DNA of 47,054 nt. Origin: a bacterium (GTDB lineage Bacteria; Zhuqueibacterota; QNDG01). This document shows, one piece after another, positions 1,157 to 16,119 of this stretch. The translations under genes and the position numbers were made by a program. Under the pieces are notes generated by a model that ran no database searches, had not been told where the DNA came from, and worked only from the letters and a program-made list of their open reading frames with translations. The stretch is from NCBI GenBank assembly GCA_021158245.1, contig JAGGVB010000201.1:1-47054 (forward strand), written 5' to 3'. Position 1 is the first letter of the stretch. Every line of letters starts with the position of its first letter.

Positions 1157-3175
1157 ATGAAGAATCAACATAATTTGAGATTCAGAAGTACGTTTCATAT
1201 GAATTATAGTTTTTTGTTTCAATTTTGGCAAAAAGTGCTGTTTGTTTTCATTCTGCTGTTTGTGGCAGTAACATCAGTGTCTAATGTCCAAGCGCAAAAT
1301 TCTGTTGTTAAGGAGCGGCGTTTAAAGGTTAGTGATTACCGTAACAAGATGATGGCCGGCTGGCTCGGCCAGATGGCAGGTGTTGGCTGGGGGGCTCCCA
1401 CAGAGTTTCGTTATCAAAGCCGTATTATTCCGGAAGGTGAGGTACCTGCGTGGCAGCCCAAAATGGTAAATGTGTGGGACCAGGACGACCTTTATGTTGA
1501 AATGACATTCCTGTGTTCCCTTGAAATGTATGGTTTTGATGTATCAATGCGCCAGGCTGGTATTGACTTTGCCAACAGTAAGTATCAACTATGGCATGCA
1601 AATAATGCCGGCCGTATTAATTTACGTAACGGCATTGCACCGCCCGATTGCGGCCATCCGGAATTCAATAAACATGCGGATGACATTGATTATCAGATTG
1701 AAGCCGATTATTCAGGCTTGATCGCACCGGGACTGCCCAACACTGTTATAGCTCTTGGTGAGAAGTTTGGGCGTTTGATGAATTACGGAGACGGACTGTA
1801 TGGCGGCCAGTTTGTGGGAGGGATGTATGCCGAAGCTTTTTTCGAGAATGATCCCTTAAAAATAGTTAAAGCAGGGCTTAAATGTATTCCATCAGGCAGT
1901 CAATATGCAGAGGCGGTTAGAGATGTGATAAACTGGCACCAGAAGAATCCTGATGACTGGCAGAAAACCTGGCAGCTTATTAATGAAAAATATCACGATA
2001 ATCCGGACTATCGGCGATTTTCCTGCGCAGGGAAGGAGAGTAAATTTGATATTGATGCCAAACTCAACGGAGCATATGTTGTTATGGGATTGCTTTATGG
2101 AAATTGCGATCTTGATCAAACTACCATTATATCGATGAGATGTGGTCAGGATTCCGACTGTAATCCCTCAAGCGCTGCCGGCGTAATTTTTACTACCGTT
2201 GGTTATGATAAACTTCCGAAGCGTTTTATATCAGGGTTGGAACGGGATAAGAAGTTCAGTTATACGGAATATAATTTCCCCATGTTAATTGATGTTTGTG
2301 AGAAACTGGCCAGAGAGACTGTATTACGGGCCGGTGGACGTATTGAGAAGAATGATGATGGAGAAGAAATATTCGTCATTCCGGTTATGGAGGTCAAACC
2401 CGGCAGCCTTGAACAGTGTTGGGAACCCGGCCCAATTGCAGGCACACGTTTTACCAGTAAAGAACTCCCTCAGTTACAATGGAGATGGTTTTTCAGACTG
2501 GCTTTGTGGCTGTTACTTGTTCTGGCCGTATTCGCATTAAAGGAAAACCGTAACCTGAAGGCTTTTTGGATTGTTGTTCCACTGATAACAGTGTTGGTTT
2601 TGAGAGCAATTTTTAGTCAACTCATACCGTCCGACTTTTTTAAAGAGGGTATTGATCCGGTTCTAATCGTTAGCTTTTCAATAGGAATAGGTCTGTTGTT
2701 TTTACTTGGAGAAAAAATTGCACGATTCAAATGGATTGTTCCTTTTGGCTTGGCTATTGTGGTTTTTGCTGCAGCGGGACTCATTGGGACAATGGACACT
2801 TGTAAAGGTTTTTATGATGGAGCAGCAAAGACATTTTTTGCAACTTATTTTTCCTGGGCAGCGACACTGCTGTTGGGGGTAACATTCACATCTTTTCTTT
2901 GCCGTAAACGGTATAGTAATAAACGTTTTCTTCTTTTTATGCTGATGTGGACCATAATCTTAAAAATCATTTTAGATACAGCCGTTGCCGCCAGTACATG
3001 GGGTTTTGCTATTTTATCTGCATATTTTATTTGGATACTTATTCTTAGTTTTGTGATGGGTATTGTACAGTATCTGTTTATGCTGCCTTTCTGGATACTG
3101 GCATTCAAAAATAAGATTTATAATCAACGATTTCGAAATTATCTCAAGTTGCCGGAAGATAATCAGTCAAAATAA
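1157..3175 (+). CDS. ADP-ribosylglycohydrolase-fold enzyme with C-terminal multi-pass membrane domain
   Basis: The protein has 672 residues. The ATG at 1157 follows an AGGAG six bases upstream. Residues ~25-47 are a hydrophobic export signal ending VQAQ. Residues ~55-430 are an ARH-fold catalytic domain: an N-terminal acidic metal site (VWDQDDLYVEMTFL, canonical WxDDT-like) and a C-terminal site (RCGQDSDCNPS). From ~440 to ~655 there are about seven or eight strongly hydrophobic segments. The enzyme is therefore probably tethered to the inner membrane with its catalytic domain in the periplasm. ARH-fold proteins cleave ADP-ribosyl or related ribosidic bonds; the substrate here is not shown by the sequence. 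A substrate yielding a ribose-like pentose would fit the ribokinase and BMC genes downstream, which is inference. The membrane extension is atypical for the family. Confidence 0.75.
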   Translation: MKNQHNLRFRSTFHMNYSFLFQFWQKVLFVFILLFVAVTSVSNVQAQNSVVKERRLKVSDYRNKMMAGWLGQMAGVGWGAPTEFRYQSRIIPEGEVPAWQPKMVNVWDQDDLYVEMTFLCSLEMYGFDVSMRQAGIDFANSKYQLWHANNAGRINLRNGIAPPDCGHPEFNKHADDIDYQIEADYSGLIAPGLPNTVIALGEKFGRLMNYGDGLYGGQFVGGMYAEAFFENDPLKIVKAGLKCIPSGSQYAEAVRDVINWHQKNPDDWQKTWQLINEKYHDNPDYRRFSCAGKESKFDIDAKLNGAYVVMGLLYGNCDLDQTTIISMRCGQDSDCNPSSAAGVIFTTVGYDKLPKRFISGLERDKKFSYTEYNFPMLIDVCEKLARETVLRAGGRIEKNDDGEEIFVIPVMEVKPGSLEQCWEPGPIAGTRFTSKELPQLQWRWFFRLALWLLLVLAVFALKENRNLKAFWIVVPLITVLVLRAIFSQLIPSDFFKEGIDPVLIVSFSIGIGLLFLLGEKIARFKWIVPFGLAIVVFAAAGLIGTMDTCKGFYDGAAKTFFATYFSWAATLLLGVTFTSFLCRKRYSNKRFLLFMLMWTIILKIILDTAVAASTWGFAILSAYFIWILILSFVMGIVQYLFMLPFWILAFKNKIYNQRFRNYLKLPEDNQSK

Positions 3176-6443: not shown

Positions 6444-6472
6444 TTGACAAATGGAAAAGTATTTTTTATATT
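6444..6472 (+). promoter_or_regulatory. Sigma70-type promoter for the SorC-family regulator
   Basis: A consensus -35 TTGACA (6444-6449), a 17-bp spacer and a -10 TATATT (6467-6472). The start codon is about 47 nt past the expected transcription start. No clear Shine-Dalgarno precedes the ATG at 6527. Confidence 0.75.
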
Positions 6473-6526
6473 ATTCCTGTTGTGAACAGAATTTCAACTT
6501 ACAAGAACAAATGATCGCTAATAAAA

Positions 6527-7483
6527 ATGCCATACGTAACAAAAGAAGATGAAGAACTAATAGAAATCTCCCGACTTTATTATGATCACAATTTTAGTCA
6601 GTTAGAGATTGCAAAAAAGTTGGGTATTTCACGGCCAGCTGTTTCTCGTTTGTTGCAAAAAGCCCGAGACAAAGGAATAGTTAAAATAAAAATATGCGAT
6701 CCATCTGATCATGGGACAAAACTTGAAAATAGAATTAAGGATAAATTCAAATTAAGAAAAGTAATTATAGTGCCTAATGAAGGTGTGGACACAAAAGTGA
6801 TTAAGCGGCGTTTAGGTGAAGCAGCAGCAAAATATTTGGATTCTTTATTAACTGAAAATATTATTCTTGGAGTGTCATGGGGTACAACCATGAGAGAAGT
6901 TATTAAGTATTTGAAACCGCGGCCAATAAAAGGAATGATTGTTGTCCAATTGAACGGAGGTGTTGCAAAAGCAGTATATGATACTCATTCCAGTGAGATT
7001 GCAATGAAGATTGGGGAGAACTACCATGCAATACCTTTTCTGATGACATTGCCTGCAATATTTGATGATAGTTCTCTAAAAAAGGCTATTATGAATGATA
7101 AAAATATTTCTCACCAATTGAAGTTGGCTAGTCAAGTTTCGGTAGCGATGTTTACAGTGGGTGCTTTTAATCGTGAATCCGTTTTAGTGTTGGCAGATTA
7201 TTTTGAACCTAATGAAGTTAATTATTTGCTAAAAAAAAGAGCAGTTGGTGATATCTGTTCTAGGATTATTGATGAAAATGGAAAAATTTGTTGGAAAGAG
7301 TTAAATGACAGAACCATTGGAATTGAAATCGAAGAGTTACGAAAAAAAGAATTTTCTATTGCAGTTGCTGGAGGTAAGGAAAAATTAAAGGCCATTTATG
7401 CAGCGTTACTTGGAAAATATTTTAATGTGCTAATCACAGATGAATGGGTTGCTACTGAAATATTAAAATTATCGAGCAATTAA
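6527..7483 (+). CDS. SorC/DeoR(Bsu)-family transcriptional regulator
   Basis: The protein has 318 residues, the usual length for this family. Residues ~18-55 form a helix-turn-helix (LEIAKKLGISRPAVSRLLQK). The rest is the SorC sugar-phosphate-binding domain, with GVSWGTTMREV and VQLNGGVAKAV typical of its sugar-isomerase-like fold. Family members bind phosphorylated sugars; Bacillus subtilis DeoR, a SorC-family protein, responds to deoxyribose-5-phosphate. This fits the DeoC-containing operon that starts 195 bp downstream on the same strand. The likely role is local control of the BMC operon. GAACAAATG-type repeats occur before this gene and before the operon and may be its sites. Family confidence is high; the effector is inferred. 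Confidence 0.9.
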   Translation: MPYVTKEDEELIEISRLYYDHNFSQLEIAKKLGISRPAVSRLLQKARDKGIVKIKICDPSDHGTKLENRIKDKFKLRKVIIVPNEGVDTKVIKRRLGEAAAKYLDSLLTENIILGVSWGTTMREVIKYLKPRPIKGMIVVQLNGGVAKAVYDTHSSEIAMKIGENYHAIPFLMTLPAIFDDSSLKKAIMNDKNISHQLKLASQVSVAMFTVGAFNRESVLVLADYFEPNEVNYLLKKRAVGDICSRIIDENGKICWKELNDRTIGIEIEELRKKEFSIAVAGGKEKLKAIYAALLGKYFNVLITDEWVATEILKLSSN

Positions 7484-7576
7484 TAAATATTCTTAGTCAC
7501 AGGAGAAATATAAATAAGAGGTTATTGTTTATTTGTTAAATTAAAAGAAAAAGGTATAATTTTTTTTAAATTAGAA

Positions 7577-7608
7577 TGAACAAATGTTTTTGAGTGCTGA
7601 ACATATGT
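7577..7608 (+). promoter_or_regulatory. Paired 11-bp repeats, candidate SorC-family operator
   Basis: TGAACAAATGT (7577-7587) and TGAACATATGT (7598-7608) differ at one base and start 21 bp apart, two helical turns. A related GAACAAATG is at 6505-6513, just before the regulator gene, and AACATATGT recurs at 13414-13422 inside another promoter spacer. Confidence 0.5.
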
Positions 7609-7620
7609 AATGGATATAAT
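7590..7620 (+). promoter_or_regulatory. Suboptimal sigma70-type promoter for the GH116-BMC operon
   Basis: TTGAGT (7590-7595) and a perfect TATAAT (7615-7620) are separated by 19 bp, longer than optimal. The second candidate operator repeat lies in the spacer, which suggests a controlled promoter. Confidence 0.45.
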
Positions 7621-7677
7621 TTTGAAATTGTAAAATTAATTTAAGAATCGAGATTTATTGTTCGTGAGGTGGCCAAG

Positions 7678-10419
7678 ATGAAAAAGTTAGTATTAATAAT
7701 TTCAGCTATTTCTATTATAACTAATTCATTAAATGCTGTACAGAAAAAAGATAGAAGCAATTTATTTAGTTCTGATAAGATACGGTCATTTACTGGAAAA
7801 GATCTACAAACAATTGCATTTCCTATTGGTGGAGTAGCAACTGGGAATATTCTATTAGGTGGCAGAGGCGACATTCATGGACTTGAAATTTTCAATAAAC
7901 CGGCTAAGAGTTCGACCACCGGATTCGGAAATTTTTTCTCCATATGGGTTAAGAAAAAGGGAGAGAAGCCTGTAGCAAAAATATTAGAACGACAATTACT
8001 CCCTCCTTATACGGGTTGGATGGGAGTCCCAAGGAATCAATTTGGCGGAGTTTCCAGATTTAAAGAAGTTATATTTAAGGGGGAATATCCTTTTGCATAT
8101 CTTACTTACAAAGATGAGACCATTCCTATAAAAATAAATCTTGAAGCTTATAATCCATTTATCCCTCTTTCTCCGAAGAGAAGTGGTATTCCTGCTGCAA
8201 TATTTAACTGGAAACTCAAAAATCCAACAAATTCTTCTATAAAGGTTTCAATCGCGTTTACTATGCAGAATCCAATACAATCGGGGAATAAGAAAGATTT
8301 TGATTTTTACAATAATTTAGACATTGGAGACGACATAAATGAATATATCGATGATGGGGTAAATAGAGGAATATACATGTATTCTAACAGTAACAAAGAA
8401 AAGGATCTGGAATTTGGGAGCCTTGCTTTTGCTACAACTAATGAAGATGTTGATGTTCAAACAAGGTGGTATAGGGGTATCTGGTTTGATAAGGCACATA
8501 TTTTCTGGGGTGATTTCACAGACGATGGACGTATCAGGAATTATACTGAAAAGGCCAGCTCAAAAAATAATAACACATTCTATTGGAATCCAAAATCTGA
8601 TGTCGCAACTGTTTTAGTATCAATTGAATTAAGGCCGAATGAAGAAAAAACAGTTCCTTTCTATTTTAGTTGGTTTTTTCCGAATAGAAAAGAAATCTAT
8701 TCTATTGGTGCAACAGAATCATCAATATTTAGAAATTACTATACTACCCAATTTAAGGATGCGTGGGATGTTCTTAGATATCTAACTCAAAATATTAAAA
8801 ATTTATATAAGGATACTAAAACTTTTCATGATATTCTTTTTAGTTCTTCCTATCCATCGTATGTGATTGATGCTATAACTTCTCAAATGTCATCACTTAA
8901 AACGAATCTTGTAACGCGTGATGAAAAGGGACAATTTTATGGATGGGAAGGGTTGACAGATAACGCAGGGTGTTGTTTTGGGAGCTGTACACACGTATGG
9001 AATTATGCACAAACTTTAGCTTATCTATTCCCTTCTCTCGAAAGAAGTATGCATGAGATAACATTACTCCATGATACATTTAATAATGGTTATCAACCGT
9101 ATCGTACTATATTCCCGCCTGAAAATAGGTGGTTTCATTTTCGTCCTGCAGCTGACGGGCAAATGGGAAATATTATCACAACATATAGAGAATGGAAACT
9201 TTCGGGTGATACTGATTGGCTAAAAAGTATTTGGCAAAAGGTTAAAGCCTCACTTGAGTATGCATGGAAAGGTGTTGGAAAGGTTGAGGAGAATTTGGAA
9301 TGGCAGAAAAATGGTGCTGCATTGCCATGGGACCCAAACAAAGATGGTGTTATGGAGGGGCAGCAGCATAATACGTATGATGTCGATTTTTATGGACCAA
9401 ATACCATGGTTGGTGCAACTTACTTAGGTGCATTAAAAGCAGCTTCGGAGATGGCAAAAGCTGTGGGTGAAGATGATAAGTCAAAGGAATACATCAAGCT
9501 TTTCCAAAAAGGTTCTAAAAAATATGATAGACTTCTGTGGAATGGGGAATATTATTCTCAGAAGGTTGATGTTCTTGATGGACTTAAGGTCCCAAAGGAG
9601 TGGCAAACTCCTAATACGGATGGAGAGATTATACCAAAGTATCAATATGAAAAGGGTTGCTTATCGGATCAGTTAATGGGCCAGTACCTGGCTTTTACGA
9701 CTGGCCTTGGTTATTTATTCAATAAAGCCCATGTTGATCAAGCTATGGAATCGATTTTTAAATACAATTTTCGAACTGATTTTAATAATTTCTCAAATGT
9801 TCAACGCATATATGCTCTGAATGATGAGAAAGGACTTCTTCTTTGCACATGGCCTAAAGGTAACCGACCTGTACTTCCTTTTATCTATTCTGACGAAGTT
9901 TGGACCGGTATAGAGTATCAGGTAGCGAGTTCGTTGATTTACACGGGGCATATCGAGGATGGATTGACAATAATTAAGGCCGCTCGTGACAGATATAGTG
10001 GTTTTAATAGAAATCCATGGGATGAAATAGAATGTGGACACAATTATGCGAGAGCAATGTCGAGCTGGGCGATAATGCTTGCTCTTTCAGGTTATCAATA
10101 TGATGGTGTTAATCACGTTATTTCATTCTCACCTAAAGTCAATAAAAATGATTTCAAGACATTCTGGTCATCAGGTAAGGGTTGGGGTGGTTTCACCATT
10201 AAAGACCACACTGTTACTGTAAAAGTGGAGTATGGAAGCCTAAAAATATTGAAATTGGGAATTTCAAAGGATTATAATTTCAAATCAATAACAAGTGTTA
10301 ATGGAATATCCAAAAATGTGCGAATAAGTTTAAAAAAGAAAAATTGTCTATTATATGTCTCTTTTGAAAATCTTGTAGAACTGAAAAGGGGCGATCATTT
10401 ATCAATTGTGTTTAAATAA
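7678..10419 (+). CDS. GH116-family glycosidase (GBA2-like), exported
   Basis: The start is set at ATG 7678, six bases after GAGGTGG; a GTG nine bases upstream is also in frame. The 913-residue product has a signal peptide (~22 residues), an N-terminal beta-sandwich with IAFPIGGVATGNILLGGRGD (the GH116 signature region), and an (alpha/alpha)6 catalytic domain. Numbering from the GTG, E427 in GWEGLTDNAGCC fits the nucleophile position and D571 or D573 in HNTYDVDFYGPNTM fits the acid/base region. GH116 enzymes act on beta-glucosides, beta-xylosides or beta-N-acetylglucosaminides; which one applies here cannot be read from sequence. It lies 35 bp before the RpiB-DeoC gene, so it is probably the first gene of the BMC operon. 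It likely acts in the periplasm or at the surface. Confidence 0.9.
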   Translation: MKKLVLIISAISIITNSLNAVQKKDRSNLFSSDKIRSFTGKDLQTIAFPIGGVATGNILLGGRGDIHGLEIFNKPAKSSTTGFGNFFSIWVKKKGEKPVAKILERQLLPPYTGWMGVPRNQFGGVSRFKEVIFKGEYPFAYLTYKDETIPIKINLEAYNPFIPLSPKRSGIPAAIFNWKLKNPTNSSIKVSIAFTMQNPIQSGNKKDFDFYNNLDIGDDINEYIDDGVNRGIYMYSNSNKEKDLEFGSLAFATTNEDVDVQTRWYRGIWFDKAHIFWGDFTDDGRIRNYTEKASSKNNNTFYWNPKSDVATVLVSIELRPNEEKTVPFYFSWFFPNRKEIYSIGATESSIFRNYYTTQFKDAWDVLRYLTQNIKNLYKDTKTFHDILFSSSYPSYVIDAITSQMSSLKTNLVTRDEKGQFYGWEGLTDNAGCCFGSCTHVWNYAQTLAYLFPSLERSMHEITLLHDTFNNGYQPYRTIFPPENRWFHFRPAADGQMGNIITTYREWKLSGDTDWLKSIWQKVKASLEYAWKGVGKVEENLEWQKNGAALPWDPNKDGVMEGQQHNTYDVDFYGPNTMVGATYLGALKAASEMAKAVGEDDKSKEYIKLFQKGSKKYDRLLWNGEYYSQKVDVLDGLKVPKEWQTPNTDGEIIPKYQYEKGCLSDQLMGQYLAFTTGLGYLFNKAHVDQAMESIFKYNFRTDFNNFSNVQRIYALNDEKGLLLCTWPKGNRPVLPFIYSDEVWTGIEYQVASSLIYTGHIEDGLTIIKAARDRYSGFNRNPWDEIECGHNYARAMSSWAIMLALSGYQYDGVNHVISFSPKVNKNDFKTFWSSGKGWGGFTIKDHTVTVKVEYGSLKILKLGISKDYNFKSITSVNGISKNVRISLKKKNCLLYVSFENLVELKRGDHLSIVFK

Positions 10420-10454: not shown

Positions 10455-11843
10455 ATGTCTGAAAAAACAACATTATCAATTGCCATCGGATCGGATCATG
10501 CAGGCTTCTCATTAAAGGAAGTGCTGAAATCATATCTTATAGCGAATGGCTATGAGTTATTTGATTGTGGTACTTATAATAAAGATTCCGTCGATTATCC
10601 AAAATATGCATATGCTGTTGCTAAAAGGATATCCGATGGTAAGGCTCAATTTGGAATTATTGTTGATGGATCCGGTATTGGATCTGCTGTGGTAGCAAAT
10701 AAAGTACACGGTATTCGTGCTGCGATGTGTTATGATCTTTCCACTGCAAAGAGTGCGCGTGAGCACAATGATGCGAATGTATTAACATTAGGTGCAGGAT
10801 TGATCAGCTCAACATTGGCTAAACAAATTGTTGATGTTTTTTTGTCAAGCAAATGTACTGTTGAACGCTATTTGAGTAGAGTGAAGATGGTAGATGATTT
10901 AAACGCATGCATTAAACAGAATTGTAATTTTGAGGACACTGTAAGTCTTCAAAAAAAGGAGACAAATTCATTGGATTTAACAGATCAAGATATTGAGCGC
11001 GTTGCGGATAAAATTAAAGATTTTTTAGAGGCTCAGAAAATTAGTCTATACAATAGCGCAAATGTTGCTTTTAAGCAAAGTGTAGATAATGACCATGATA
11101 CTGTACGCAAATTTATTAACTTGGGTGTTGAGAGGATATCAAATAGTCCTGGGATAACAAATATTCCACGAGACATTGCTAAGTATATTGATCATACTTT
11201 ACTAAACCCTGATGCAACGATTGATGATATTTTGAAATTATGTTCAGAAGCAAAGGAATTTGAATTTGCTTCGGTTTGTATAAATCCAACATATGTCCCA
11301 CTGGCTGCAAAGGAATTGGCAGGAACACATGTCCATGTATGTGCAGTTGTTGGGTTTCCGCATGGAAATCATATGCCTGAGATAAAAGCTCATGAGACAC
11401 GTCGAGCTATTCGTGATGGTGCTAAAGAAATTGATATGGTTATTAATATTGGAGCATTAAAGAATGGTAATGAAGAATTATTATACAAAGATATCAGGAT
11501 GGTTGCTGAAGCTTGTGAAGATGGAGGTGCTTTGAGCAAAGTTATTATCGAAGCAGCATTGCTGACTGACGAAGAAAAAATAATTGCTTGTAAAGTAGCT
11601 AAACGTGCGCGAGCAAATTTTGTAAAGACTTCTACTGGATTTGGCCCGGGAGGTGCGACTAAGCATGATGTAGAATTAATGAGCCGAGTTGTCCGTGATT
11701 CAGGGATGGGAGTTAAAGCTGCTGGGGGAATTAAAACTATTGAAGATTTTAATGAAATGATTACAGCAGGTGCTACAAGAATAGGTGCGAGTGCGGGTGT
11801 TCAAATTCTTGAGCAAGCAAAAAATATTACAGTTTCTGAGTGA
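10455..11843 (+). CDS. deoC: RpiB-DeoC fusion: BMC sugar-phosphate isomerase/aldolase
   Basis: The protein has 462 residues. Residues 7-150 are an RpiB-type sugar-phosphate isomerase ([32 protein letters not shown]). The usual catalytic cysteine (CGTGIG) is replaced by D71 (VDGSGIG). Residues ~235-460 are a deoxyribose-5-phosphate aldolase: D327 (EIDMVIN), Schiff-base K391 (FVKTSTGF) and K421 (GVKAAGG) are all present. The linker holds an amphipathic helix at residues 173-194 ([18 protein letters not shown]) that resembles the N-terminal helix of the aldehyde dehydrogenase and is probably an encapsulation peptide. DeoC splits a 2-deoxy sugar phosphate to acetaldehyde plus glyceraldehyde-3-phosphate; the true substrate of this fusion is unproven. 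It acts inside the microcompartment. The upstream Shine-Dalgarno (AAGGA) is short. Confidence 0.93.
10971..11036 (+). other. Predicted internal encapsulation-peptide helix in the RpiB-DeoC linker
   Basis: Encodes residues 173-194 of the fusion, an 18-20-residue amphipathic helix flanked by low-complexity linker. It aligns without gaps to the N-terminal helix of the aldehyde dehydrogenase (LTEKQVDTVARRVLERLL): L-T-D/E, aliphatics at i/i+3/i+4, R/K at matching faces. Confidence 0.6.
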
Positions 11844-11876: not shown

Positions 11877-12500
11877 TTGGTTGATCTACGTGCTTATATT
11901 TTTTTAGATAGCATCCAACCCCAATATGCAGCATTTTTAGGAACTATTGTGAAAGGATTTTTACCAATTGCCGGAATGGCTTCACTTTATGTTGAAATTT
12001 CTCCCGGGATTGAGATTAATCGTGTAACTGATATTGCATTAAAATCAACAGATGTTACACCAGGAATGCAGATTGTTGAAAGGCTTTACGGATTATTAGA
12101 GGTTCATTCATCCTCCCAAGCAGACGTTCGTCAAGCAGGTAATGCTATTTTGGAGGCATTGGAATTAAAAGAAGAGGAACGGTGGAAACCGAAAATATAT
12201 TCCAGTCAAGTGATTCGTTCTATTGATGATTACCAGACACAGCTGATTAATCGAATGCGCCATGGGAATATGATTGTTCCAGGAGAAACTCTTTTTGTAA
12301 TGGAGGTTCAACCTGCAGCTTATGCAGCTTTGGCTGCTAATGAAGCTGAGAAAGCTGCAGATATCAATATTTTAGAAGTAAGGGCATATGGTAGTTTTGG
12401 AAGGATTTATCTTGGTGGGAAAGAACGGGATATTGATGTCGGCTATCGGGCTGCTATTAAGGCGATTGAGGATGTCTCTGGAAAAGAAATGAAAAATTAA
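11877..12500 (+). CDS. BMC-T shell protein (stacking, gated-pore type)
   Basis: The protein has 207 residues with two tandem BMC domains. The first (residues ~3-100) has [19 protein letters not shown] and [20 protein letters not shown]. The second (~108-205) has IPVGE-like [34 protein letters not shown] and [11 protein letters not shown]. These features match the Haliangium-type trimeric BMC-T class whose trimers can stack face to face with gated central pores, proposed to pass bulky substrates or cofactors. The start is TTG at 11877, seven bases after GGGAGG; the nearby ATG at 11872 is out of frame. It follows RpiB-DeoC by 33 bp, so the two are co-transcribed. Confidence 0.93.
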
Positions 12501-12552
12501 TAAAGAGAATTTTTGTCCAAATTTAAGAGAGACAAGGAAAAGAAGGATTCCT

Positions 12553-12625
12553 CCCGATTAAAATCGGGACGGGAATAACATGAGGGAGGGGTGTCATTCC
12601 TGAAATTTTCAATCAGGAATCCAGG
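12553..12625 (+). repeat. Two REP-like palindromic elements between BMC-T and BMC-H
   Basis: CCCGATT/AATCGGG (12553-12568) is a 7-bp stem with a 2-base gap. ATTCCTGA/TCAGGAAT is an 8-bp stem within GTCATTCC...GGAATCCAGG (12593-12625), a frame widely seen in dispersed bacterial intergenic palindromes. It lies in a 253-bp gap that otherwise holds only the BMC-H ribosome site. It may be a mobile REP-like insertion or an mRNA-stability or processing hairpin. Confidence 0.6.
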
Positions 12626-12753
12626 ATTGGGCTAAGTGTCTATTCCTAAATAAATTTGATTAAATGTGGTTGTGATTTATGAATAATGCAGGTTAGTAAA
12701 GATGGAAAATTTATTTTTTTGAAGAGAACAACAAATAATTTGGAGGTAATGAA

Positions 12754-13065
12754 ATGGCTGAAGCATTAGGTATGATTGAAACCCGGAGTTTTCCTGCAGT
12801 AGTCGAAGCAGCAGATGCAATGGTAAAAGCAGCAAAAGTAGAATTGGTTGGTTATGAAAAGACAGGAGGCGGTTATGTTTCTGCAATCATTCGGGGTGAT
12901 GTTGCTGCTGTGAAAGCCGCATGCGATGCAGGTAGGGCAGGTGCCTCAAAAGTTGGTGAGATCGTTGCAATCCATGTAATTGCTCGCCTTCATGCGAACG
13001 TTGATATTGTTATGCCACTTGGCCGCATGGAGAAAAAGGAGAAAACAACTATAAAGCGGTCTTAG
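12754..13065 (+). CDS. BMC-H hexameric shell protein
   Basis: The protein has 103 residues with a single canonical BMC (Pfam00936) domain: [53 protein letters not shown], and a short Lys-rich tail. The pore loop reads KTGGG (residues 36-40), where PduA has KIGSG, so the central pore is lined by glycines and may be comparatively open. A strong GGAGGT lies six bases before the ATG. This is the only BMC-H gene in the window, so it should form most of the shell facets. Confidence 0.97.
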
Positions 13066-13099: not shown

Positions 13100-13399
13100 A
13101 TGATTTTAGCAAAGGTAGCGGGTACTGTTGTTGCAACTCAAAAAGAGCCGAGTATGGAAGGACTGAAGTTTCTTTTATTACGTCAGATAGATTTAGATGG
13201 TAAAAAAACAGGTGGTTTTGTAGTAGCAGTAGATGCTGTGGGGGCTGGCATTGAAGAAATTGTACTCTATGCCAGTGGGAGTTCTGCAAGACAAACTATC
13301 ATGACAGAAAAACGTCCATGTGATGCTGTAATCATGGCTATTGTTGATAACTGGGAGGTTGAAGGCCAGTTGAAATATAAAAAGGGTGTTGATGACTAA
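13100..13399 (+). CDS. BMC-P pentameric vertex protein 1 (EutN/CcmL family)
   Basis: The protein has 99 residues and is the full family length: [58 protein letters not shown], and AIVDNWEV at the end. These pentamers cap the vertices of the polyhedral shell. It follows BMC-H by 34 bp with an AGGA before the ATG. Two further BMC-P genes lie at 15557 and 15838; three paralogues with different loop sequences is the arrangement of Haliangium-type shells. Confidence 0.95.
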
Positions 13400-13404
13400 A
13401 TGTA

Positions 13405-13433
13405 TTGACACTTAACATATGTCAGATTATAAT
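13405..13433 (+). promoter_or_regulatory. Perfect-consensus sigma70 promoter inside the BMC operon
   Basis: TTGACA (13405-13410), exactly 17 bp, TATAAT (13428-13433). The spacer holds AACATATGT (13414-13422), shared with the candidate operator at 7598, and an inverted TGACA/TGTCA pair. It should drive the aldehyde dehydrogenase and the genes after it. Confidence 0.8.
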
Positions 13434-13492
13434 ATTTAATTATTCAATATGATGCTGAATAAACATTTTTGATGATTATGAGGAATGTTGAT

Positions 13493-14947
13493 ATGTCTTC
13501 CTTGACGGAAAAGCAGGTTGATACTGTAGCCCGACGTGTACTCGAAAGGTTACTATATACCAGTCCTGATGATAGATTAAATTTGCCTAATAAGAAAGAT
13601 CTTTCTCAAAAATATTCGTCCTTATCAGGCATATTTTCGAAAATAAACGAGGCAGTAGCTGCAGCCGGACAAGCTCAACGCCAGTTAATGCAACTTTCAT
13701 TGGCAAAACGAAATGAGATAATCAAGAATATCCGGCTTAAAATGTCTGAACATGCAGAAGAATTAGCTCGGAAAGCGCATGAAGAGACAGGTCTTGGACG
13801 TGTTGAAGATAAGATTTTAAAGAATAAACTTGTTATTGAGAAAACTCCAGGAACCGAAATATTGACAACTCAGGCGTATTCGGGTGATCGCGGTTTGATG
13901 TTGATGGAATTGGCGCCATATGGTATTATCGGTGCTATAACACCTGTAACGAATCCTACTTCAACGATTATTTGTAATACGATTGGTATGATTGCGGCTG
14001 GGAATGCTGTTGTCTTCAACGTACATCCATCTGCAAAAAATGTAAGTATTGAAAATATTATTCTAATTAATGAAGCGATTTCTGAAGCAGGGGGGCCATG
14101 CAATTTAGTCACGGCAATTTCTGAACCGACAATTGAAAGTGCACAGGAATTGATGAAACATTCAGATGTTCGTTTACTTGTTATAACAGGTGGTGCAAGT
14201 GTTGTAAAAGCAGCCATGACAAGTGGAAAGAGAGCAATCTGTGCAGGGCCTGGGAACCCTCCTATTGTTGTGGATGAGAGTGCGGACATAAAGCAGGCAT
14301 CCAAAGATATATTACTGGGTGCATCTTTGGATAACAATATTATCTGTGTCAGTGGAAAAATTTTGTTCGTAGTAGAAAGTATTGCAGATAAACTTATTTC
14401 AGCACTTAAAAATCAGGGTGCTGTCCAACTAAGTAAAGAACAGTTTACGCATCTTGAGAAGATTATTTTTGCGGAAAACCATGGACCTCGAATGCATGCG
14501 GTTATGGAAAAAACACTTATTGGAAAAGATGTTCAGGTTATATTATCGAAAATTGGAATTAATGTAGATCAGGATGTGCGGTTAGCTATTGTGGAAGTCC
14601 CGTATGAGCATCCATTGGTTTGGACCGAACAGATGATGCCAATTCTTCCGATTGTGAGGGCGGAAAGTGCCGATCAAGCCATTGATATGGCCAAGGAAGC
14701 TGAGGGTGGATTACGCCATACAGCCGTGATGCACTCCAAGAATCTTGACAATTTGAGCCGTATGGCACGGGAAATGGACAGCAGTATTTTTGTGAAGAAT
14801 GGACCTGCAGTTGCCGGTTTGGGTTATGGGGGCGAGGGGTATTGCTCATTTTCAATAGCTAGTCCTACGGGAGAAGGGTTGACAAATCCAAGAAGTTTCG
14901 CTCGTGAACGTCGTTGTGTATTAGTAGACCATTTTAGGATAATATAA
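13493..14947 (+). CDS. BMC CoA-acylating aldehyde dehydrogenase (PduP/EutE-like)
   Basis: The protein has 484 residues from the ATG at 13493, chosen because GAGGA lies eight bases upstream; in-frame TTG 13469, ATG 13472 and ATG 13478 lack a good site. This start puts the helix LTEKQVDTVARRVLERLL at residues 4-21, a typical N-terminal encapsulation peptide, followed by a flexible linker. The enzyme domain has the PduP-type cofactor segment GIIGAITPVTNPTSTIICNT and the catalytic cysteine C285 in NNIICVSGK. It oxidises the aldehyde made by the aldolase to acyl-CoA with NAD+ inside the shell. Its stop overlaps the next start (TAATG), indicating translational coupling. Confidence 0.95.
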   Translation: MSSLTEKQVDTVARRVLERLLYTSPDDRLNLPNKKDLSQKYSSLSGIFSKINEAVAAAGQAQRQLMQLSLAKRNEIIKNIRLKMSEHAEELARKAHEETGLGRVEDKILKNKLVIEKTPGTEILTTQAYSGDRGLMLMELAPYGIIGAITPVTNPTSTIICNTIGMIAAGNAVVFNVHPSAKNVSIENIILINEAISEAGGPCNLVTAISEPTIESAQELMKHSDVRLLVITGGASVVKAAMTSGKRAICAGPGNPPIVVDESADIKQASKDILLGASLDNNIICVSGKILFVVESIADKLISALKNQGAVQLSKEQFTHLEKIIFAENHGPRMHAVMEKTLIGKDVQVILSKIGINVDQDVRLAIVEVPYEHPLVWTEQMMPILPIVRAESADQAIDMAKEAEGGLRHTAVMHSKNLDNLSRMAREMDSSIFVKNGPAVAGLGYGGEGYCSFSIASPTGEGLTNPRSFARERRCVLVDHFRII

Positions 14948-15594
14948 TGAAAGTATACCCTGCAATAGCATTAATCGAATATTCAGATATTCCTATGGGA
15001 ATTCTATGCAGTGATGCAATGGTTAAACACTCTCCAATTTCAATGATTAAGACTGGTACTGTATCTCGGGGTAAATTTTTGATTTTGATTGGGGGCAGTG
15101 TTGCTTCTGTGGAAGAAGCGTACGAAGAAGGTGTAAATAGAGGAAAATCTTTCCTTTTGGATTCTCTATTTCTGCCTGATGTGCATAGACAAGTCTATGA
15201 TGCGTTGTTAGGGAACCGCACTGGATGTATTGGGGATGGCATAGCTGTTTTTGAGACGAAAACAGTGGCAACAGTGATTCGTTCATCAGACGCAGCTGTT
15301 AAAAGTGCAGATGTAGACATTATTGAAACCCGAATGGCTGATTCTTTGGGTGGTCAAGCATTTACAATATTTACGGGGAAAGTAGGGGATCTTGAATCAG
15401 CTATTCGGATTGCTCAAAGATCAGCTGAAGAATTTAATGCTTTGTGTAGCTATTCGATTATCCCCAAATTGCATCCAGAGATCGCTAAGCAAATTGATGT
15501 ATCAACACGATTTTCAAAAATTGAAAGTTTATTTATTAAAGATGGAGAGATAAATAATGTTATTGGGAAGGGTGATAGGAACTCTGACACCTAG
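14947..15594 (+). CDS. BMC-T shell protein (second, Haliangium T1-like)
   Basis: The protein has 215 residues with two BMC domains: residues ~4-95 (PAIALIEYSDIPMGILCSDA, GKFLILIGGSVASVEEAYEE) and ~100-185 (GIAVFETKTVATVIRSSDAA, GGQAFTIFTGKVGDLESAIR). It differs from the first BMC-T: each half is closer to a plain BMC-H domain, as in single-layer trimers. A C-terminal extension of about 30 residues overlaps the next gene by 38 bp. The start overlaps the aldehyde dehydrogenase stop. Confidence 0.92.
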   Translation: MKVYPAIALIEYSDIPMGILCSDAMVKHSPISMIKTGTVSRGKFLILIGGSVASVEEAYEEGVNRGKSFLLDSLFLPDVHRQVYDALLGNRTGCIGDGIAVFETKTVATVIRSSDAAVKSADVDIIETRMADSLGGQAFTIFTGKVGDLESAIRIAQRSAEEFNALCSYSIIPKLHPEIAKQIDVSTRFSKIESLFIKDGEINNVIGKGDRNSDT

Positions 15595-15841
15595 TGAAGT
15601 TTATAAAGGATTAAAAGGAGTTCCTATGCTCATAGTTCAACCATTAGATAAACAGCAGAAATCTGCCGGGTCACCTTTGGTTGCAGCTGATTCAACAAGA
15701 ATGGCCGGACATGGTGAGCTGATTTATTATGAAGGTGGACGAGAAGCAGCGTTAGCACTGGATCCGTGGTTTGTTCCTGTTGACCATACGATTATTGGAA
15801 TTGTAGATGATGTGCACTTGTTAAATTTGGAGGATACATGA
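15557..15841 (+). CDS. BMC-P pentameric vertex protein 2
   Basis: The protein has 94 residues of the EutN/CcmL family: MLLGRVIGTLTPSEVYKGLK, MLIVQPLDKQQKSAG, LVAADSTRMAGHGELIYYEG, and GIVDDVHLL. The central GAG/GxGE loop is AGHGE, and the GSSAR-type motif is replaced by GGREA, so it differs from vertex proteins 1 and 3 at the positions lining the pentamer mouth. The start lies inside the end of the BMC-T gene with GGAGAG upstream. Its stop overlaps the next start (ATGA). Confidence 0.93.
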   Translation: MLLGRVIGTLTPSEVYKGLKGVPMLIVQPLDKQQKSAGSPLVAADSTRMAGHGELIYYEGGREAALALDPWFVPVDHTIIGIVDDVHLLNLEDT

Positions 15842-16119
15842 TCCTGGGACAGGCCTGCGGGGTTATATACTCTACAATTAACCATCCTTTTTATGACACT
15901 AGGCGGCTTCTCATTGTTGATCGTTTAGATCCAAAAGGCCGACCAACCGGCAAATATTTAATTGCCGTGGACACTGTAGATGCTGGTAATGGGGAAATTG
16001 TATTAGTTATCGATGAGGGAAATTCAGCCCGTCAGATTGTAGATGATTCCAATGCACCAATTCGTTCTATAATCGTTGGAATTGTTGATCATATAAGTAT
16101 AGATATAGATAAAGTATGA
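15838..16119 (+). CDS. BMC-P pentameric vertex protein 3
   Basis: The protein has 93 residues of the EutN/CcmL family: MILGQACGVIYSTINHPFYD, LLIVDRLDPKGRPTGKYLIA, VDTVDAGNGEIVLVIDEGNS, and ARQIV with a GIVDHIS end. It is the last shell gene. The 4-bp ATGA overlap with vertex protein 2 shows tight coupling. The 215-bp gap that follows is AT-rich and has no strong terminator, so read-through into the TonB receptor gene is possible. Confidence 0.94.
   Translation: MILGQACGVIYSTINHPFYDTRRLLIVDRLDPKGRPTGKYLIAVDTVDAGNGEIVLVIDEGNSARQIVDDSNAPIRSIIVGIVDHISIDIDKV

Follow-up and report, generated by a model that had tools for sequence, protein, structure and literature searches.

A microcompartment (BMC) operon in the window, by which we mean the whole stretch of 47,054 nucleotides analyzed here, contains a perfect TTGACA-N17-TATAAT sequence ahead of its aldehyde dehydrogenase gene. 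Is this sequence a working promoter, and is it controlled by the regulator encoded upstream? An earlier note on this DNA had taken the sequence for a promoter and had suggested that one SorC-family regulator sits between the -35 and -10 boxes of this promoter and of a weaker one at 7590, so that both parts of the operon are repressed but the second can be expressed much more strongly. The genes concerned are as follows.

6527-7483, plus strand: DeoR-type regulator of the SorC family (winged helix plus sugar-phosphate-binding domain), by homology to Bacillus subtilis DeoR
7669-10419, plus strand: GH116 (DUF608) glycosidase gene, between the regulator and the BMC genes
10455-11843, plus strand: RpiB-DeoC fusion enzyme (PF02502, PF01791), signature of sugar-phosphate BMC loci
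11877-12500, plus strand: shell protein, BMC-T type
12754-13065, plus strand: shell protein, BMC-H
13100-13399, plus strand: shell vertex protein, EutN/CcmL
13493-14947, plus strand: aldehyde dehydrogenase gene (the ORF opens at 13469; the ATG at 13493 is the likely start, judged by the N terminus of relatives)
14947-15594, plus strand: shell protein, tandem-BMC type
15557-15841, plus strand: shell vertex protein, EutN/CcmL
15838-16119, plus strand: shell vertex protein, EutN/CcmL

The segment 10455-16119 combines a PF01791 aldolase, a PF02502 isomerase, an aldehyde dehydrogenase, and shell genes, as in the definition of SPU-type (sugar phosphate utilization) BMC loci (PMC8217296). The RpiB-DeoC fusion is known from Marinimicrobia (PMC4207490), and the locus shares with SPU loci (PMC4207490, PMC8217296) RpiB and DeoC (fused here), the aldehyde dehydrogenase, BMC-H, BMC-T, and three vertex proteins. 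Compared with the SPU loci of the relatives examined, the GH116 gene and the internal perfect-consensus promoter are found in this genome only. SPU-type relatives have RpiB-DeoC immediately after the regulator gene, whereas here the GH116 gene intervenes and the good operator lies before it.

The sequence under study reads as follows.

13405-13433, plus strand: internal promoter TTGACA-N17-TATAAT, perfect consensus (12 of 12 hexamer matches and a 17-nt spacing)

The letters are exactly those given in the earlier note: TTGACA occupies 13405-13410 and TATAAT 13428-13433, with CTTAACATATGTCAGAT as the 17-nt spacer. Upstream, the EutN gene stops at 13399, 6 bp before the site begins; downstream, some 60 bp separate the end of the site from the likely ATG of the aldehyde dehydrogenase gene (13493). 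Both hexamers and their distance are as expected of a sigma-70-type promoter (16 to 18 bp); the site has TTGACA-N17-TATAAT in common with sigma-70 consensus promoters, whereas for the host lineage the promoter type is read from spacing enrichment only. This enrichment was determined by pattern searches of the genome (3.21 Mb, 233 contigs). Perfect TTGACA/TATAAT pairs number 66 over all spacings from 6 to 36; 11 are at N17, whereas spacings outside 16 to 18 have a mean of 1.9 (Poisson P ~5e-6), an excess of the kind that promoter selection leaves. When up to one mismatch is allowed, there are 139 sites versus 50 for the reversed control. Six of the 11 perfect N17 pairs lie outside ORFs of at least 100 codons and the remaining 5 inside; as 16 of 20 off-spacing perfect pairs are inside ORFs, only about 0.4 intergenic N17 pairs are expected by chance, where 6 were observed. 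The N17 excess and the intergenic concentration thus indicate that 13405-13433 is probably a real promoter, in line with the note's claim of an internal promoter in the BMC operon, although background may account for about one in six of the perfect N17 pairs genome-wide.

The internal promoter is not conserved: in 17 related loci, the 260 bp preceding the aldehyde dehydrogenase gene never contained a TTGACA-like promoter, the upstream regions in genomes G015, G019, and G025 having been read directly. In one congener genome, neither the regulator nor the aldehyde dehydrogenase had a match. The promoter is thus probably private to this genome or lineage and, on its own, an ordinary, lineage-specific feature. 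This lack of conservation would also fit an accidental consensus in AT-rich intergenic DNA that is not used, the operon being read from promoters at 7533-7560 (and 6444-6472), and so would the spacing-independent background of 1.9 such pairs per genome and the lack of a good plus-strand intrinsic terminator in the operon before 13405. However, an accident does not predict a sixfold excess at exactly N17 that is concentrated in intergenic DNA, and the estimated background chance of an intergenic perfect site is only ~6%; we therefore regard this explanation as unlikely. Between the BMC-T and BMC-H genes, the gap 12501-12753 (about 250 bp) is longer than in most relatives; it contains two hairpin-like inverted repeats, CCCGATTAAAATCGGG and ATTCCTGA...TCAGGAAT, and no good plus-strand terminator was found in it. 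Since a 35-bp piece of the gap is unique in the genome, there is no support for the idea that insertion of a genome-wide repeat at 12545 created the need for an internal promoter.

The candidate regulator aligns end to end with B. subtilis DeoR (8r7y; E=1e-74) and more weakly with other SorC-family members. It has a winged helix and a Sugar-bind domain and is closest to B. subtilis DeoR, and its recognition helix (SRPxVSRLL) is near-identical to that of DeoR, so that it can be classified as DeoR type. A difference concerns the motif VVQLKGG of Firmicutes DeoR, which reads VVQLNGG in the window regulator and its SPU-type relatives. We take the lysine of this motif to be B. subtilis Lys141, the covalent attachment point of deoxyribose-5-phosphate. 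At the aligned position, 9 of 10 Firmicutes sequences have Lys, a feature of the characterized member B. subtilis DeoR and not of the whole SorC family. In the literature, nothing usable was found on the DeoR lysine. Because Asn replaces the Firmicutes Lys, deoxyribose-5-phosphate is unproven as the inducer; it is plausible as the effector from the pathway, but the exchange suggests a different inducer or a different mode of binding it, with implications for what SPU organelles metabolize. In B. subtilis, the effector binds DeoR covalently, and tetramers occupy two half-operators, either of which alone is not bound in solution (PMC11229326). Among the sequences aligned, Asn is found in the SPU-type microcompartment regulators (L127-L149), and Leu or Val is found in four other non-Firmicutes regulators (L146, L150, L151, and L160).

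To define the operator, we compared homologues of the regulator in genomes of Neomarinimicrobiota, Calditrichota, and KSB1; an alignment query of the contigs retrieved them, and a single-sequence query of the genome contigs gave no matches. (i) In all 25 non-Firmicutes loci with upstream sequence, the pair TGAACAWATGTTAA-N7-TGAACAWATGTTCA lies directly before the regulator gene. Its halves are 14-bp near-palindromes with starts 21 bp apart, and the pairs have 1 to 6 mismatches of 28, versus 6 to 12 for the second-best pair in the same 500 bp. (ii) In most relatives, a TTGACA-N17-TAnnnT promoter ends where the first operator half begins, so that the -10 box abuts the operator; in these three groups, the operator is thus usually just downstream of the promoter and not between its boxes. 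(iii) In Firmicutes homologues, TGAACAWAATTTCA-N8-TTTACAWATGTTCA has a 22-bp spacing and usually follows the deoR gene closely; it matches the published DeoR operator (PMC11229326). In the Firmicutes DeoR loci (L153-L173), the right-half TTTACA is a likely -35 hexamer (TTTACA-N17-TATNAT), and the Firmicutes operator would therefore overlap its promoter differently from the type of the three other groups. Three loci of another microcompartment type (L045, L046, and L047, from G011, G003, and G006), with at least two BMC-H genes and without the RpiB-DeoC fusion, have the same type of regulator and the same 21-bp tandem operator as the SPU type.

In the window, the following regulatory elements correspond to this pattern or had been proposed previously.

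6444-6472, plus strand: promoter of the regulator gene, TTGACA-N17-TATATT, with position and sequence type as in relatives
6483-6517, plus strand: predicted degenerate tandem operator, TGAACAGAATTTCA-N7-AGAACAAATGATCG, 21-bp phase, behind the 6444-6472 promoter and before the regulator gene
7533-7560, plus strand: likely promoter of the GH116 and BMC operon, TTGTTA-N16-TATAAT, with the operator downstream of its -10 box as in relatives
7577-7611, plus strand: predicted tandem operator, TGAACAAATGTTTT-N7-TGAACATATGTAAT, 21-bp phase, conserved in relatives
7590-7620, plus strand: the weaker promoter of the earlier note, TTGAGT-N19-TATAAT, here not accepted as the promoter of the operon

At 7577-7611, two palindromic TGAACA/TGTTCA halves lie near a promoter at a distance of about two helix turns from each other, as expected of a DeoR-type operator, and the core tandem without mismatches has a single match in the 3.2-Mb genome, at 7577. 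Given the matching pairs in 25 of 25 related loci, the halves at 7577 and 7598 are predicted to be a genuine operator of the SorC-family regulator, which upholds the note's reading of the 21-bp phase as the mark of a regulator site. The promoter that this operator serves is another matter. The site at 7590 was rejected, as its -35 box has only 4 of 6 matches, its spacer is 19 nt, and relatives have no promoter there. Since the operator is downstream of the -10 box in relatives, the likely promoter is the one at 7533-7560, with its -10 box at 7555-7560 upstream of the motif; it is the better candidate, its own weak points being a -35 box that reads only TTGTTA and a 16-nt spacer. The pair at 6483 and 6504 is the second-best tandem of the window (PWM score, 14.5, or 17.0 with a different pseudocount). 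Shuffled sequence reaches similar values at its upper end (17.8 in the best of 12 shuffles); the pair stands out by its position, where relatives carry theirs, and not by its score.

The proposal of a shared regulator had been based on the 9-mer AACATATGT, said to lie in the spacers of both promoters. Exact copies are indeed present at 13414-13422, within the spacer of the internal promoter, and at 7600-7608, but the latter belongs to the tandem operator 7577-7611, and the promoter at 7590 in whose spacer it was placed is probably not that of the operon. The near copy AACAAATGT at 7579 is exactly 21 bp from the copy at 7600, as had been stated. A third exact copy, absent from the earlier note, is at 11288 inside the deoC coding sequence; within 11286-11335 it is accompanied by a second operator-like 9-mer, AACACATGT, 36 bp away, and both sites (11288 and 11324) are taken as codon coincidences. 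Against an expectation of 0.71, three copies in the window are only mildly unusual, a count that 5 of 100 shuffles also attain. Genome-wide, there are 22 strand-matches versus 44 for the reversed control, which is at or below chance, and a regulon defined by the 9-mer alone was rejected on these counts. The genome-wide motif search that had been suggested as a check therefore had two outcomes: the 9-mer occurs at the chance frequency that was to speak against a shared regulator, and the full tandem is unique in the genome.

There remains the resemblance to an operator within the internal promoter.

13412-13425, plus strand: TTAACATATGTCAG, a lone sequence partly resembling one operator half, without a good 21-bp partner

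This site differs from one operator half at 4 positions, and 6 further mismatches at the 21-bp partner position bring the tandem total to 10, which is at noise level; two palindromic halves are thus not found there. Its plus-strand tandem PWM score is -7.5, versus at least 20 for relatives in a leave-one-out comparison, and relatives carry no consistent operator-like site at the corresponding place. From these scores and the non-conservation, the copy of AACATATGT in the spacer is most likely a chance half-match, and the internal promoter is therefore probably not under direct control of the regulator. The earlier model, in which the same DeoR/SorC-type repressor occupies the spacers of the 7590 and 13405 promoters and represses both operon halves, the second promoter being the stronger, can draw on the exact 9-mer common to both sites, on a precedent for the spacer position (the right operator half in Firmicutes overlaps the -35 box and spacer [PMC11229326]), and on scores of the 13405 region that are somewhat above those of random stretches. 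The single-half score of 5.5 is the second highest of 30 promoter-like sites and is reached by 5% of random stretches, and the minus-strand tandem score of 3.1 is reached by 0.7% of random 129-bp window stretches (uncorrected). However, only one half is present at 13412, where a tandem would have 10 mismatches, both this site and the 13405 promoter are absent from relatives, single halves are not bound by B. subtilis DeoR in solution (PMC11229326), and the operator at 7577 belongs to the class located downstream of the -10 box and not to the spacer class. The placement of the regulator between the two boxes at both promoters is thus unsupported, and we give the shared-repressor model little probability. 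Real control of the internal promoter by the DeoR-type regulator in any form likewise seems doubtful. One such form, a weak reversed tandem operator over 13412-13446 acting as a second, internal DeoR-type control point on the perfect-consensus promoter, appears improbable; if true, the aldehyde dehydrogenase and the late shell genes would have an induction of their own, stronger than that of the aldolase half. Control by another regulator through the inverted repeat TGACA-N9-TGTCA, which is visible at 13406-13424 and overlaps the -35 box and spacer, is very improbable, since arms of five bases easily arise by chance and neither a regulator nor a second site is linked to the repeat.

We therefore favor, and as a whole consider probable, a private internal promoter of the housekeeping type combined with a regulator that acts at paired operators elsewhere. 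The sigma-70-like promoter at 13405-13433 would give a transcription start near 13440 and would serve the second half of the operon, namely, the aldehyde dehydrogenase, the tandem-BMC shell protein, and two vertex proteins. The regulator would bind, presumably as a tetramer, to pairs of 14-bp palindromes in a 21-bp phase: at 7577-7611, between the -10 box at 7555-7560 and the GH116 and BMC genes, and more weakly at 6483-6517, resulting in autoregulation. Bound regulator would block initiation until a sugar-phosphate effector binds; both the repression and the effector are deduced here.

The closest known system is B. subtilis DeoR with its dra-nupC-pdp operator. The two regulators are full-length homologues with near-identical recognition helices, and in both operators, two palindromic halves of the TGAACA/TGTTCA type are spaced by about two helix turns, next to a deoxyribose-phosphate aldolase gene. 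In contrast to B. subtilis, the window halves are 21 and not 22 bp apart and both near-palindromic, the operator is downstream of the -10 box instead of at -60 to -21, and the regulator, with its Asn for Lys in VVQLKGG, serves a microcompartment operon. The CggR operator of the B. subtilis gapA operon, a tandem of two halves downstream of the transcription start that is bound by a tetramer (PMC11229326), shares the tandem shape and the place; however, its half-site sequence (CGGGAC...TGTC) and DNA-binding domain differ, and the window protein matches CggR weakly. The comparison provides a precise, testable operator for SPU microcompartment regulators in Neomarinimicrobiota, Calditrichota, and KSB1, where few promoters have been studied experimentally; literature searches yielded nothing usable on the operator of SPU regulators or on KSB1 promoters. 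The predicted operator comprises two 14-bp palindromes in a 21-bp phase just downstream of the -10 box; it is a DeoR operator in common with Firmicutes, yet it lies over the start instead of upstream of it, with 21 versus 22 bp between the halves. Elsewhere in the window, two ADP-ribosylglycohydrolase-family genes follow each other (30-848 and 1157-3175), and the product of the second has a C-terminal stretch of likely membrane helices.
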